This document shows, one piece after another, positions 4,227 to 12,825 of a stretch of DNA of 33,783 bases (the stretch's first letter is position 1; each line of letters starts with the position of its first letter). The position numbers were made by a program, and so were the translations under genes. Source of the DNA: a virus; the IMG/VR virus record IMGVR_UViG_3300043449_000243, positions 1 through 33,783 of that record; one strand, 5' to 3'. The notes under the pieces were generated by a model, which was not told the origin of the DNA, did no database searches, and worked only from the letters and a program-made list of their open reading frames with translations.

Positions 4227-5288
4227 TTATCGCCTAATGATTAGTTCGTTAATTGGCACGTCATAAGAGCGCTCGGGAAATTCTGCTCGGCGTTGTTCGT
4301 CTGTTAGGTTTCTGCGCTTTTGAGTGGCTCTAGCTTCGGCTTCACCGGCAAGGCGGCGGTACAAGTCGAATCGTGCTTGCCCGCTTAAATTTGCTATGAC
4401 TGCTTTGCTATCAAGGTCTTGCGCTTCTCGTTCAAGTTGCAAACCTTTCTTTCTAGCGCCCGGCTTTACTATGCGACCGGGATCAAGCGGGTCATTGGCT
4501 TTTGAAAGATTAAACAATTCTTTAGCTTTTTGTCTTTTTTCTTGAGCAATTTCCTCAAGTGTCATAGTCATTGATTCGGGACTGCCGCCCCTTGCAAATC
4601 CTTCTTTCTGTTGGATTGCGTGCTGCAACTCATGCAAGGCGGTGCTACGTTGCTTAATGGTGTCAGGGCCTGCAACGGTCATGGTTCGTGCATTAGGTAT
4701 AAAATTTCCGCTAGGTTCAGCGGCGGCAAAAAAATTAGAGTGAATTCCTTTTAATTCAGGATAAGCGGCATAAAGTTCGTTATGTGACAAACCTTGCTCT
4801 AACAATCCTTTGAACTTTTGATTTTCAGAAATTCCTCGATACACGTTTTCGGTAATTTTTGATCCTTTATCGCTTATTTCTTGCCGCCATGCAGAATCCG
4901 GCGCTTTCCAGTTGCCAGTTTCCTGCCATATTGTTTCCGGTGTAGCGCCTGCCTTTTCCATTTGCAGGGCGCGGGCGTTAGCCTCGGCGTTCCAACTTTT
5001 TGCTTTCGGGCCAATAAAAGTTGCTGCAATCTCTGCCGCCCTATCAATGTTCCTTTGTTTTACATCTTCGGGCACACCGAACACCGAACCACGCCAAAAG
5101 TTAGCGCGTGCTAAATCGTTCACAGCATTAACAGGCTCTGCTGATCCGTAGCTTGAACCTGTGCCCAATGCCTTCAATGCGCCAACCAACCTGCTCGGCA
5201 CTTTGGCAAGTTGTTGCGCTATCGTTGGCGGTGCAGCCGTAGCGCCTTGATACTCAAGCGCCGCCGCTAGACGTTCTTGTTCAGTCAC
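4227..5288 (-). CDS. LPD23-type zincin-like metallopeptidase in the head operon
   Basis: A 353-residue protein with a zinc-protease signature HELQH (about residues 219-223) followed by AIQQKEGFARGGSPE. This is typical of the large-polyvalent-protein-associated domain LPD23, known from phage and mobile-element polyproteins. The preceding block (GPKAKSWNAEANARALQMEK, then WQETGNWKAPDSAWR) is also typical of that family, and a Glu-rich RRLAGEAEARATQKR stretch downstream could supply the third ligand. I place the start at GTG 5288, which has GGAG at good spacing and lies just inside the upstream stop. The longer frame from 5327 overlaps the previous gene needlessly. Function is unknown: it may be packaged and injected, or may process head proteins. 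Confidence 0.75.
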   Translation of the reverse strand: MTEQERLAAALEYQGATAAPPTIAQQLAKVPSRLVGALKALGTGSSYGSAEPVNAVNDLARANFWRGSVFGVPEDVKQRNIDRAAEIAATFIGPKAKSWNAEANARALQMEKAGATPETIWQETGNWKAPDSAWRQEISDKGSKITENVYRGISENQKFKGLLEQGLSHNELYAAYPELKGIHSNFFAAAEPSGNFIPNARTMTVAGPDTIKQRSTALHELQHAIQQKEGFARGGSPESMTMTLEEIAQEKRQKAKELFNLSKANDPLDPGRIVKPGARKKGLQLEREAQDLDSKAVIANLSGQARFDLYRRLAGEAEARATQKRRNLTDEQRRAEFPERSYDVPINELIIRR

Positions 5289-5571
5289 GATTACGCTCCG
5301 AGATAGCGCGAGCCTTGGCGCGAGCATCTTCCTTGCTGCTTGCTCCCCACGCTTTCAACGCCAATGCCAATCGAGTAGGACTGCCGTTCTTTTCCATCGG
5401 GCCAGGCATATTGCCCATGCGAGCAAGGAAAGAAGCGCGACGCGGGTTATCGCCTGCCTTGACGGGAGGCTTAAGCGTCCCGCCAGTCTCAGCTTTGTAC
5501 GAAGCTCTCCCCTTGGCGTTCAGACCGCCCTGTGGATTTTTGCCTTCGCTACGCGTCCACGCTGCGCTCAT
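5281..5571 (-). CDS. DUF6321-like small phage protein
   Basis: A 96-residue basic protein whose text (AWTRSEGKNPQGGLNAKGR..., LKPPVKAGDNPRRASFLARM, LALKAWGASSKEDARAKA) fits the DUF6321 family, common next to terminase or portal genes of aquatic phages and of unknown function. It is rich in Lys, Arg, Gly and Pro, which fits nucleic-acid or virion binding. It overlaps the next gene by 4 bp as ATGA and the metallopeptidase start by 8 bp. Confidence 0.75.
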   Translation of the reverse strand: MSAAWTRSEGKNPQGGLNAKGRASYKAETGGTLKPPVKAGDNPRRASFLARMGNMPGPMEKNGSPTRLALALKAWGASSKEDARAKARAISERNRD

Positions 5572-7623: not shown

Positions 7624-7992
7624 TTACTTAAGAAAGCGCAATTTGTAGAGGGTCGAGTCGATCTGATCTGCGATGCCGTCTACCAAGTTGTTCAGCTCGC
7701 TATCCTGTGGCAAGTCCTTGCGAATGTCGTTTACAAACTCTTTGATCTGCGTCAGATACTTCACCGGGTCGGTGGCTAGGTGGAAGTCCTTGGGGTAGCC
7801 GGTAATGATGTCATAGCACCCCTGATACGCCTCTGCCCACTTGTCTGCGAGTTCGACAATAGCGTCGTAATACTCACCAAGCGCCATGTGTTGCGCGAAT
7901 GACTTGGTTTGCAAGTGCATGAAGTGCGTAACGGTTGACGAGTGAAAAAGAACACTAACAAACGCCGCCGCCGATTCGTTGTATTTCGACAT
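7624..7992 (-). CDS. DUF5856-like ferritin-fold protein
   Basis: A 122-residue helical protein whose text (SVLFHSSTVTHFMHLQTKSFAQHMALGEYYDAIVE split over two helices, then LADKWAEAYQGCYD) fits DUF5856, a phage family with a Dps/ferritin-like helical look. His and Glu residues are spaced along the first helices as in metal-binding bundles, but I cannot confirm a ferroxidase site. Function in phages is unknown. It has its own promoter candidate (8020-8048) and an AGGGTG ribosome binding site, and is separated from the terminase genes by a 46-bp gap. Confidence 0.65.
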   Translation of the reverse strand: MSKYNESAAAFVSVLFHSSTVTHFMHLQTKSFAQHMALGEYYDAIVELADKWAEAYQGCYDIITGYPKDFHLATDPVKYLTQIKEFVNDIRKDLPQDSELNNLVDGIADQIDSTLYKLRFLK

Positions 7993-10886: not shown

Positions 10887-10996
10887 TTTTTTGCCTCCAT
10901 TTCACGAATGTCCATCGCTGCATCTGCTACACCGTGCCAGTCCTCTTGCTTTACCTTCAACAACAAGTATTGCAGCATGATCTCTTTGTCAGTCAT
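10847..10996 (-). CDS. Small phage protein (49 aa)
   Basis: The reading frame begins MTDKEIMLQYLLLKVKQED and continues WHGVADAAMDIREMEAKK, a small helical type I recognise from other phages, always of unknown function. ATG 10996 overlaps the glycosyltransferase stop as ATGA and has GAGGA upstream. Its last 13 codons overlap the start of the replication-like gene in another frame. The conserved-looking part ends just where that overlap begins. Confidence 0.65.
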   Translation of the reverse strand: MTDKEIMLQYLLLKVKQEDWHGVADAAMDIREMEAKKCSTSSTASSQKK

Positions 10997-11829
10997 TTAT
11001 TTTCCTCAAGTGCAACTAACTTCATTCCATAGTTGTTAACGCCCTCACGAACAACCACGTTCTTCTTGATGAGTCTGTTTCGCTTGAACACATCAAAGTC
11101 GACGCGATGATGCCATCGACCGTATCGCATGACAAGACTTGCCATGTCTGGCCATGTATCAACAAGCATCTGCGACTTTTCTTTGTTACGACTGCCGTTA
11201 CCGTAAAGTTCCTCTGTGTTGCCACCTTTTACAGTCAAAGTTGCTGCTTTGTTTTGCAAAAAAGCGTTGAACATGATTGTGCACCAACCTGCTGTGAGCA
11301 TCTGCAAAGAAAGATCAACATCCTCATTGTATTTAAGTCTCCAACGAAACGGCACATCGTTGCGAATCAAGATGCACGAGAAAATTCTTGTATTGATTCT
11401 GAACGGTGGCATCGCTGTTCTCTGCTCTGCAAAGAAACGATACTGCAAGCCAGCTTGTGCGACGTTCTCATAGCGATCAACGAAATCTTCGCACGCTTTG
11501 AAGATCGCAGGTGATCTGCAAGGTATTTTTTTGTTGTTGTTCAAGCGCACGAAGCCGTCGATGTTGTCGTCCATGATCCAGTGCCATGTAGCTCCTTGCG
11601 AGATCGAATGCTCCCAACACCAGTTGCGTGCAGGATAAGAGCCAAGTCCGTGATTGCTGAACGGTAGCACTAAGATTTTTCTCGCTTCAATGACTGCTGC
11701 ATAAGCATCGTATTCTTGAGGCTCTACTGCGATGCGATAGTCAACGTTCATGCGCTCAAGTGCTCTGCTCGTATGACGAGAGTCAGCACGACCTTTGCTG
11801 ATGATGTAGATAGGATGCTTAGGCTTCAT
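10993..11829 (-). CDS. TAGT-family (TET-associated) glycosyltransferase
   Basis: A 278-residue GT-A type enzyme. IYIISKGRADS at residues 7-17 fits the nucleotide-sugar binding start, and WHWIMDDNIDGF carries a DDN (87-89) in the metal-binding DxD position. The segments RYENVAQAGLQYRFF, the RINTRIF region with CILIRND, and RLKYNEDVDLSLQML complete the pattern of the TAGT family, also found in metazoan GREB1. TAGTs were described beside TET/JBP oxygenases and proposed to glycosylate oxidised bases, but no oxygenase is visible here. The start at ATG 11829 overlaps the upstream gene. GTG 11841 is possible. Confidence 0.8.
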   Translation of the reverse strand: MKPKHPIYIISKGRADSRHTSRALERMNVDYRIAVEPQEYDAYAAVIEARKILVLPFSNHGLGSYPARNWCWEHSISQGATWHWIMDDNIDGFVRLNNNKKIPCRSPAIFKACEDFVDRYENVAQAGLQYRFFAEQRTAMPPFRINTRIFSCILIRNDVPFRWRLKYNEDVDLSLQMLTAGWCTIMFNAFLQNKAATLTVKGGNTEELYGNGSRNKEKSQMLVDTWPDMASLVMRYGRWHHRVDFDVFKRNRLIKKNVVVREGVNNYGMKLVALEENK

Positions 11830-12055
11830 CGACGTAAACACGCTTTTCTGACTTCTCTTTGACAGGAAATAACACGCTCTTAGTCGTGAACGATATGCGA
11901 CGACCTATCAGTTCTGAAAACTCATTCATGTCTTCAGTCGTCAGAAAACTAATCGTTACTTGATGAATCGTGCGTAAGTTCTCTTGAATGAACTCAGGCA
12001 TGTCTTGCCATTCTTTATTGTAGTCAAACATTTCTTCGCCAAACAAATCACTCAT
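11819..12055 (-). CDS. Small protein paired with the TAGT enzyme
   Basis: A 78-residue protein beginning MSDLFGEEMFDYNKEWQDM and containing VTISFLTTEDMNEFSELIGR and TTKSVLFP. I recall this compact alpha/beta type preceding TAGT-like glycosyltransferases in other phage contigs, which suggests a functional pair. No catalytic motif is visible, so it may be an adaptor or substrate-binding partner. ATG 12055 has AGGTGA upstream and lies about 40 bp after the structured non-coding region. Confidence 0.65.
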   Translation of the reverse strand: MSDLFGEEMFDYNKEWQDMPEFIQENLRTIHQVTISFLTTEDMNEFSELIGRRISFTTKSVLFPVKEKSEKRVYVDEA

Positions 12056-12098
12056 GAGTCACCTGTATAAGTAGCTAGTAGTATCTGCTTTCTGGTGA

Positions 12099-12458
12099 GC
12101 GCACTTAGCCTAAGCCAAATGCGCCTTTAGTCTGTGCTTTCCGGAGCCACGACACTCGTCAGTCTTTCGGTCAAGGGCACTAACTTCGCCACCCTTATGC
12201 GTGCTGTCGCAGACCTTAGCCACCAGTAGCACTCTTTCAATCGCAGCCCTGTTGCTCTCATTGCCGACTGCGTTGTAGTCAAAGAAAAACCCACCTACGG
12301 CTGGGCTTCGAGCTGCGGTGGAAGAGAACAAAGTCAACAAAAGTCTCGACAACCGAAGCCCATGCGTAGATGGGTTCATGTCAACTTTGTTCGCGCTTCC
12401 ACACGCTGCCGATCTTTCTCTCGGACAAACACACAGTAAACGACTATTTTCTGTTTGT
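12099..12458 (-). ncRNA. Candidate structured RNA or leader upstream of the TAGT operon
   Basis: This fills the 406-bp stretch between the repressor gene and the TAGT operon, which holds no convincing gene. Read on the minus strand, it starts with hairpins ACAAACA/TGTTTGT (12458-12425) and CCGA/TCGG. The interleaved repeats at 12289-12406 follow. Next come CGCAG/CTGCG (272-268 with 246-242 of 12xxx), GGTCTG/CAGACT (12215-12210 with 12134-12129) with CGACA/TGTCG stacked inside it, AAGGG/CCCTT, a CGAAAG mini-loop, and a final hairpin GCGCA-CTTAG-g-CTAAG-TGCGC (12124-12099). It could be a free ncRNA or a 5' leader controlling the TAGT genes. I cannot match it to a named family. Confidence 0.45.
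12289..12406. repeat. Interleaved long inverted repeats (A-B-A'-B')
   Basis: Arm A (12289-12310) is the reverse complement of A' (12354-12375) over 20 of 22 positions, allowing one G.U, with a 2x2 internal loop. Arm B (12315-12338) is the reverse complement of B' (about 12380-12406) over two perfect blocks of 7 and 9 bp plus flanking pairs. The order A-B-A'-B' cannot form two nested hairpins. Either a pseudoknot, a choice between two folds, or pairing between molecules is implied. Confidence 0.75.
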
Positions 12459-12461
12459 CAA

Positions 12462-12683
12462 CTACTGCTGCGGGACGATCTCAGCAACAAGCTGCTGCAC
12501 AGGTATGTAATCGACAGGATTGACGACCAGCGCGTTTTGAGTGATGACTTGCAACTTGTACGCAACGCCCTCGGGAATCGTGCCACGCTTCGCCCATTGA
12601 CTCACAGCTTGACTTGTAATGCCCAATGCCTCAGCCAGCTTGCGCCGATTGCCAAAATGCTGCTCTGCTTGTACAACTTTCAT
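12462..12683 (-). CDS. Cro/CI-like helix-turn-helix repressor
   Basis: A 73-residue single-domain HTH protein. The HTH reads RRKLAEALGITSQAVSQWAK, with the recognition helix around TSQAVSQW, followed by GTIPEGVAYKLQVIT, as in Cro-type regulators. ATG 12683 is set by AGGAG at spacing 6, and the upstream in-frame ATG at 12755 lies in the control region and has no support. It diverges from the plus-strand early operon, and its promoter is flanked by matching operator sequences, so autoregulation and control of the early operon are likely. No protease or oligomerisation domain is present. Confidence 0.85.
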   Translation of the reverse strand: MKVVQAEQHFGNRRKLAEALGITSQAVSQWAKRGTIPEGVAYKLQVITQNALVVNPVDYIPVQQLVAEIVPQQ

Positions 12684-12701
12684 GATAGCTCCTAGGTTGA
12701 A

Positions 12702-12717
12702 AAGAATACTTGCAAAG
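12702..12717. promoter_or_regulatory. Operator candidate near the repressor transcription start
   Basis: AAGAATACTT (12702-12711) repeats the core of the palindrome at 12763-12778. The overlapping ACTTGCAAAG (12708-12717) is the exact reverse complement of CTTTGCAAGT at 12786-12795. It lies at about the transcription start of the repressor promoter. Confidence 0.55.
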
Positions 12718-12720
12718 AGC

Positions 12721-12748
12721 AGTATAGTGTGGCAATCTTTCTTGTCAA
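12721..12748 (-). promoter_or_regulatory. Sigma70-type promoter of the repressor gene
   Basis: On the minus strand TTGACA (12748-12743) and TATACT (12726-12721) are separated by 16 bp, a near-consensus pair. One operator candidate lies downstream at the start site and one just upstream of the -35, so bound repressor would cover both edges. Confidence 0.75.
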
Positions 12749-12762
12749 GCGACATTGATTAA

Positions 12763-12778
12763 GTTAAGAATACTTAAC
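12763..12778. promoter_or_regulatory. Palindromic operator candidate
   Basis: GTTAAG-AATA-CTTAAC has perfect 6-bp inverted arms around a 4-bp spacer. Its core AAGAATACTT occurs again at 12702-12711. The site lies between the repressor promoter and the early-operon start, where a Cro/CI-like protein would bind. Confidence 0.65.
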
Positions 12779-12785
12779 AATTTTC

Positions 12786-12795
12786 CTTTGCAAGT
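12786..12795. promoter_or_regulatory. Second operator-like half site
   Basis: CTTTGCAAGT is the exact reverse complement of 12708-12717, giving a 10-bp inverted pair about 70 bp apart around the repressor promoter. Confidence 0.45.
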
Positions 12796-12796
12796 T

Positions 12797-12825
12797 TTGT
12801 AATTGATCGAAAAAGTATGTAACAT
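12797..12825 (+). promoter_or_regulatory. Possible early-operon promoter
   Basis: TTGTAA (12797-12802) and TAACAT (12820-12825) are 17 bp apart, about 40 bp before the first plus-strand gene. Both elements are imperfect. It is the best pair I could find between the operators and the gene. Confidence 0.35.

Follow-up and report, generated by a model that had tools for sequence, protein, structure and literature searches.

In an IMG/VR viral contig (33.8 kb; analyzed over its full length and referred to as the window), the initial annotation had placed a structured RNA in the space that separates the repressor gene from the glycosyltransferase operon. Judging from the sequence, two folded RNA elements follow each other there, leading a minus-strand operon. 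The downstream element, RNA-1, is certainly a member of the known Rfam family RF02932, whereas the upstream one, RNA-2, is well supported as a separate pseudoknotted phage RNA family absent from Rfam. Tentatively, we interpret the region as a cis-acting non-coding leader that may gate elongation into a long lytic phage operon. The locus is organized as follows:

12462-12755, minus strand: Cro-like HTH gene (Pfam P22_Cro, 1.1e-15; PHROG transcriptional regulator), upstream of RNA-2
12433-12461, minus strand: sigma70-like promoter of RNA-2 (-35 TTGACA at 12461-12456, 17-nt spacer, -10 TACTGT at 12438-12433)
about 12426-12281, minus strand: RNA-2, pseudoknotted leader RNA or sRNA with a U-tract at its end; 5' end placed from the promoter
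12085-12274, minus strand: RNA-1, RF02932-type RNA, whole conserved unit of about 190 nt
11819-12055, minus strand: 78-aa ORF, the first after RNA-1, without a family
10993-11841, minus strand: TAGT glycosyltransferase (Pfam TAGT, 2e-46)
7335-6136, minus strand: terminase (phrog_2 match), further downstream in the same operon

The predicted promoter directly abuts the stop codon of the Cro-like gene, and a portal gene also lies further downstream on the same strand. What can be read directly from the nucleotides is the presence of both RNAs, how they are structured and ordered, the match to a promoter, an RNA-2 end resembling a terminator, and that a promoter would not fit between the two elements.

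The structure of the region is certainly real. As originally proposed, the minus strand folds (positions 12080-12461, -135.1 kcal/mol, z = -2.83 against shuffles; z = -1.89 for the plus strand), and no protein is apparent: the sizeable ORFs at 12110-12379 (minus) and 12318-12695 (plus) have no PHROG match, and in alignments, relatives keep base pairs, not codons, across the region. Covariation is far above background. The fold had been described as one new RNA of about 360 nt, a view that has to be revised in two respects, because the interval joins RNA-2 and RNA-1, and novelty holds for the upstream half, RNA-2, and not for the core of RNA-1.

RNA-1 matches RF02932 ("Betaproteobacteria-1") end to end at 12275-12154 on the minus strand (cmscan, 75.3 bits against a gathering score of 49.4, model positions 1-120 of 120); hence its core is already in Rfam. 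The accession falls in the block of Rfam numbers imported from the Weinberg collection (import in PMC7779021). No paper in the literature searched names the family or its accession, and RF02932 has been a computed motif without a role described there. An exact pattern of 18 bases taken from the core matched at least 120 stretches of the viral collection, 117 of which were read as homologs by eye. Judged by the homologs, which come from more than 110 phage contigs, the conserved unit is not the 120 nt of the Rfam model but about 190 nt, including P5, P6 and P7, with conservation in the alignments running about 70 nt beyond the model. Our model R1 (192 positions; nested helices P1, P2, P4, P6 and P7) matches all 67 chosen loci, 34 of which make up its training set, and scores 141.8 bits on positions 12274-12085 of the window, itself one of the training sequences. 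The elements of RNA-1 are:

12242-12272, minus strand: P1 (12272-12266 with 12248-12242); covariation in each of the 9 pairs of the model helix
12201-12232, minus strand: P2 (12232-12228 with 12205-12201), from the covariation alignment
12196-12192 with 12177-12173, minus strand: P3, 94% of cells paired, double changes
12184-12179 with 12163-12158, minus strand: P4, 99% of cells paired, double changes
12215-12212 with 12172-12169, minus strand: P5, 88% of cells paired, double changes
12085-12152, minus strand: 3' extension past the Rfam model, with P6 (12152-12150 with 12133-12131), P7 and a CACC tail (12098-12085)

Some of these seven helices cross: in the core (12158-12215), P3 crosses P4, and P5 crosses both P2 and P4. 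The three nested helices of the Rfam model, P1, P2 and P4, are paired in 95-99% of cells across the 67 loci, with double changes; when the crossing helices P3 and P5 are added, 94.7% of cells are paired, compared to 68.3% after shuffling. Double changes were detected in 34 of the 43 pairs. Covariation scores 0.672 in the alignment, compared to 0.194 in shuffles, which ignore shared ancestry, and 0.07-0.10 in slid-partner controls, which retain it. The core GGUGGCGAAG is invariant, and the loops are extremely conserved (GGTGGCGAAG).

Several stems of the initial annotation reappear in this structure. The AAGGG/CCCTT stem is P3 and the terminal 10-bp hairpin GGCGCATTTGGC-TTA-GGCTAAGTGCGC is P7 (12124-12115 with 12108-12099), both backed by conservation, and the GAAA element belongs to a GAAAG linker that is conserved in the homologs. 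The proposed outer GGTCTG/CAGACT stem, however, is not conserved: in the homologs, GGTC pairs with GACC (P5) and CAGAC lies in P6. The stacked CGACA/TGTCG pairing was not confirmed either, TGTCG being part of P6 in the homologs. The stretch CGACAGCAC contains the 3' strand of P2 in the homologs.

RNA-2 has no match in Rfam (cmscan of the window at gathering score, and with a cut-off of E = 10 for 12056-12800), and the same searches revealed no match to GOLLD, ROOL or HEARO; a blastn search of 745 bases against phages and plasmids returned nothing. Among the 67 RNA-1 loci, 32 (class A) carry a T-run that ends 6-50 nt (median 13; 10 in the window) before RNA-1, preceded by a strongly self-complementary stretch and a near-consensus promoter. 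A promoter equivalent to that of the window is present in other class A phages (for example, TTGACA-17-TATAAT in L028) and in the gamma alignment. In the window, RNA-2 consists of the following elements:

12409-12424, minus strand: Hp1, the 5' hairpin, CCGA-GAGAAAGA-TCGG, from the sequence
12318-12402, minus strand: helix X, 20 bp (12402-12396 and 12392-12380 with 12338-12326 and 12324-12318)
12290-12374, minus strand: helix Y, 18 bp, crossing X (12374-12365 and 12361-12354 with 12310-12303 and 12299-12290)
12281-12289, minus strand: U-tract UUUUUCUUU of the predicted terminator, from the sequence, abutting the 3' strand of helix Y

Close to the 3' end of RNA-2, TTCTC (12329-12325) is a potential pairing partner of the Hp1 loop, by 5 bp only in the window, and such loop-to-3' pairing is seen across class A. 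Among 14 distinct relatives in the window's own group, the mean pairing score of helix X is 8.8 for cognate strands and 6.3 (sd 1.0) for swapped ones, and that of helix Y is 12.5 compared to 9.4. Across 30 phages, the mean longest pairing in the terminator helix is 8.9 versus 5.9 when swapped, and pairing of the 5' part of RNA-2 with the middle part is 7.2 versus 5.9. Because X and Y cross, comprise about 20 and 18 bp, and are joined by short loops, their full simultaneous formation seems sterically difficult, and the two may alternate. Helix Y is followed by UUUUU at 12289-12285, in the manner of an intrinsic terminator (-12.3 kcal/mol in the terminator scan). Model R2, built from 31 beta-type sequences with the window left out, detects the window copy at 12386-12286 on the minus strand with 29.6 bits (rough E of 3.4e-4); reverse-strand echoes in this search reach 23 bits, whereas the window match has the expected orientation and immediately precedes RNA-1. 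In the beta set, the invariance of Hp1, of its loop and of the partner strand is due solely to the search pattern, in which they were fixed.

About 8-10 nt separate the U-tract from P1 of RNA-1 in the window. A -10 match of at least 5/6 within the last 30 nt occurs in 1 of the 32 class A loci, compared to 17% of shuffles. Since the interval from the U-tract to P1 leaves no space for a promoter, transcription of RNA-1 and the operon seemingly requires polymerase to read through the RNA-2 terminator, unless this predicted terminator fails to work. In class B, the 35 loci without a T-run, 14 have such a match (23% of shuffles), in several cases a -10-like box just before P1, so that RNA-1 can apparently follow a promoter directly.

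RNA-2 spreads well beyond RNA-1. Two exact RNA-2 patterns matched 106 and 40 viral contigs, a few chance or cut-off matches included, and RNA-1 lies downstream in only about 10 and 14 of these, respectively. RNA-2 is present in more than 100 further phage contigs, mostly ahead of other conserved structured sequences. As a phage RNA family not covered by Rfam, it is strongly supported and occurs in well over 100 contigs. In most contigs where RF02932 is absent, the slot before the first gene is filled by one of a few conserved, structured-looking sequences of 200-400 nt (types ii-v; L277-L416, for example, L294:6938-7197, L304:1025-1284 on the minus strand, L338:143-342 on the minus strand, and L346). 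Preliminarily, types ii and iv display some double changes. At sampled RNA-2 loci, only tRNAs reach the Rfam gathering score, and the slot RNAs are unmatched. The type iv RNA and the L368 element resemble RF02932 by eye in a shared 3' domain and were considered as homologs; this was rejected, as their R1 scores are noise. In L368, about 200-400 nt after RNA-2, GAGGAAAGTCC recalls the P4 strand of RNase P, with no Rfam match. RNA-1 and RNA-2 each occur once per phage record, with the exception of G040; other extra matches are contig-end fragments or reverse-strand echoes.

The first downstream ORF, by a crude ORF call, is co-directional with RNA-1 in 83 of 94 loci; for RNA-2, the neighbor is co-directional in 97 of 118 loci against a background of 75%, co-direction being common in phages anyway. 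In 21 of the 22 records with a match, the terminase large subunit is encoded 0.6-11 kb further downstream, on the strand that carries the RNAs; one of these counts only if the contig is circular. One phage group has its terminase on the opposite strand, namely G026 and the relatives G060, G061, G065 and G066 that carry RNA-2 only; therefore, the operon led by these RNAs is not always the packaging one. In G024, G070 and G072, the phrog_2 terminase matches cross 7-9 stop codons, mostly TAA, perhaps owing to an inserted element or to an alignment that spans non-coding sequence.

The leader was the better of the two roles put forward in the initial annotation, the other being a free ncRNA. Sensing on behalf of the TAGT genes is unlikely because the operon that follows differs between phages; accordingly, TAGT was dropped as the regulated gene, its link to the RNAs being incidental. 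In the proposed elongation gate, our preferred reading, a sigma70-type promoter would start RNA-2, which would fold as a pseudoknot, with the last helix serving as an intrinsic terminator. We infer that this terminator works and is conditional: most polymerases would stop there, releasing RNA-2 as a short RNA, and those reading through would transcribe RNA-1 immediately, followed by the operon (78-aa ORF, TAGT glycosyltransferase and onward to terminase and portal). RNA-1, with its invariant core, would most likely work in cis, its target being either the polymerase during elongation or an elongation factor of the host, and would allow transcription to reach the end of the long operon. This antitermination step, put-like in its logic, although RNA-1 is not a put RNA, is speculative. 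Processive antitermination might have predicted an excess of intrinsic terminators downstream; over the 6 kb that follow, the plus strand showed no such excess (0.11 per kb, compared to 0.15-0.18 elsewhere), which counts against this step.

In phage lambda, the pR' leader is a short 6S RNA ended by the terminator tR', which is passed with Q for the late genes. The proposed gate similarly has a short leader RNA ending at a terminator to be passed, but no Q-family antiterminator was detected in an uncontrolled sample of 31 records, and RNA-1 is added after the terminator. The put RNAs of phage HK022 suppress termination in cis via the zinc-binding domain of beta'. They are about 70 nt with two stem-loops, putL lying just after the promoter and putR about 270 nt in (PMC9378689). 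RNA-1, about 150 nt from the predicted start in the window and right after -10-like boxes in part of class B, is likewise a phage RNA heading an operon with no dedicated protein evident; unlike put, it is about 190 nt long and multiply pseudoknotted. GOLLD and ROOL are ornate large phage-encoded RNAs located beside tRNAs (PMC12286853); the present RNAs share with them ornate structure, phage origin and the lack of an assigned function, but do not match them in Rfam, are far smaller, and form an operon leader rather than a tRNA neighbor. The defined slot (promoter, RNA-2 terminator, RNA-1, operon), together with the full length and pseudoknots, makes the role of RF02932 testable, and the gate, if real, would add to the very few cases of RNA alone steering transcription elongation. 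A doubtful generalization is that betaproteobacterial phages of freshwater and soil share an RNA-only, protein-free gate for lytic operons, analogous to put and Q and built of interchangeable parts, in which the RNA-2 promoter and terminator would be followed by RF02932 or types ii-v enabling run-on.

Several betaproteobacterial genomes also carry RF02932 copies in regions that resemble prophages. A tight subgroup of solitary copies is dispersed over Paraburkholderia and Caballeronia chromosomes without nearby phage genes, which weakens a purely phage-operon role. These chromosomal copies keep about 130 nt upstream and about 50-340 nt downstream, which fits two trans-acting phage sRNAs, as do the extremely conserved RNA-1 loops and the occurrence of RNA-2, with its own promoter and terminator, mostly without RNA-1. 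RNA-2 would then be a terminated sRNA, and RNA-1 would be processed from a longer transcript to bind RNA polymerase, the ribosome or a regulator of the host, its place in the operon being a matter of convenience. However, RNA-1 lacks a consistent terminator and continues into the next gene, and no separate RNA-1 promoter is visible where RNA-2 is present; we consider this possibility somewhat doubtful. Less probable, and in our estimate unlikely, is a ligand- or protein-controlled, riboswitch-like attenuator in RNA-2, with RNA-1 as a structure that stabilizes the 5' end or as a component of the expression platform. The pseudoknotted terminator just past the promoter, joined to varied downstream RNAs and genes, is in line with it, but these genes do not come from one pathway, no ligand is indicated, and across groups, the Hp1 loop changes together with its partner strand, which speaks for structure and not for a fixed binding pocket.

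A function in replication or packaging, as an origin primer or a pac-like RNA, appears quite improbable: a replication-like family of ORFs ('FW..YP.KV') and a helicase/primase-like pair adjoin RNA-1 in several loci, but the position relative to replication genes varies, preceding them in some phages and following the primase in Acidovorax phage AP1. In the latter (L241:7952-8151; OM049504.1 11858-12057), the RNA occupies an unannotated gap between the primase and the next gene, inside one long operon. Finally, the near-identical, dispersed chromosomal copies (L246-L253, L257-L261, L263), with several cut short at one end (5' or 3'), would suit a mobile or regulatory DNA repeat with RNA structure secondary. 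We hold this to be the most improbable reading because of the covariation, with double compensatory changes in every RNA-1 helix, and there is one copy per phage.

A divergent RF02932-like group (about 28-41 bits) was detected on Burkholderiaceae chromosomes (L250, L273, L274, L276). Two-copy loci in Paraburkholderia were considered as putL/putR-like pairs, a reading dropped because the surroundings are non-phage: transporters, squalene cyclase and KAP/TPR-GreABC-PIN genes. In L250, the two copies (7752-7919 and 11785-11980) lie on either side of a squalene-hopene cyclase gene, about 4 kb from each other. In L251, the copies (1100-1306 and 5135-5338) flank a KAP NTPase gene, with the second directly preceding a TPR-GreABC-PIN gene, a possible link to a defense island.
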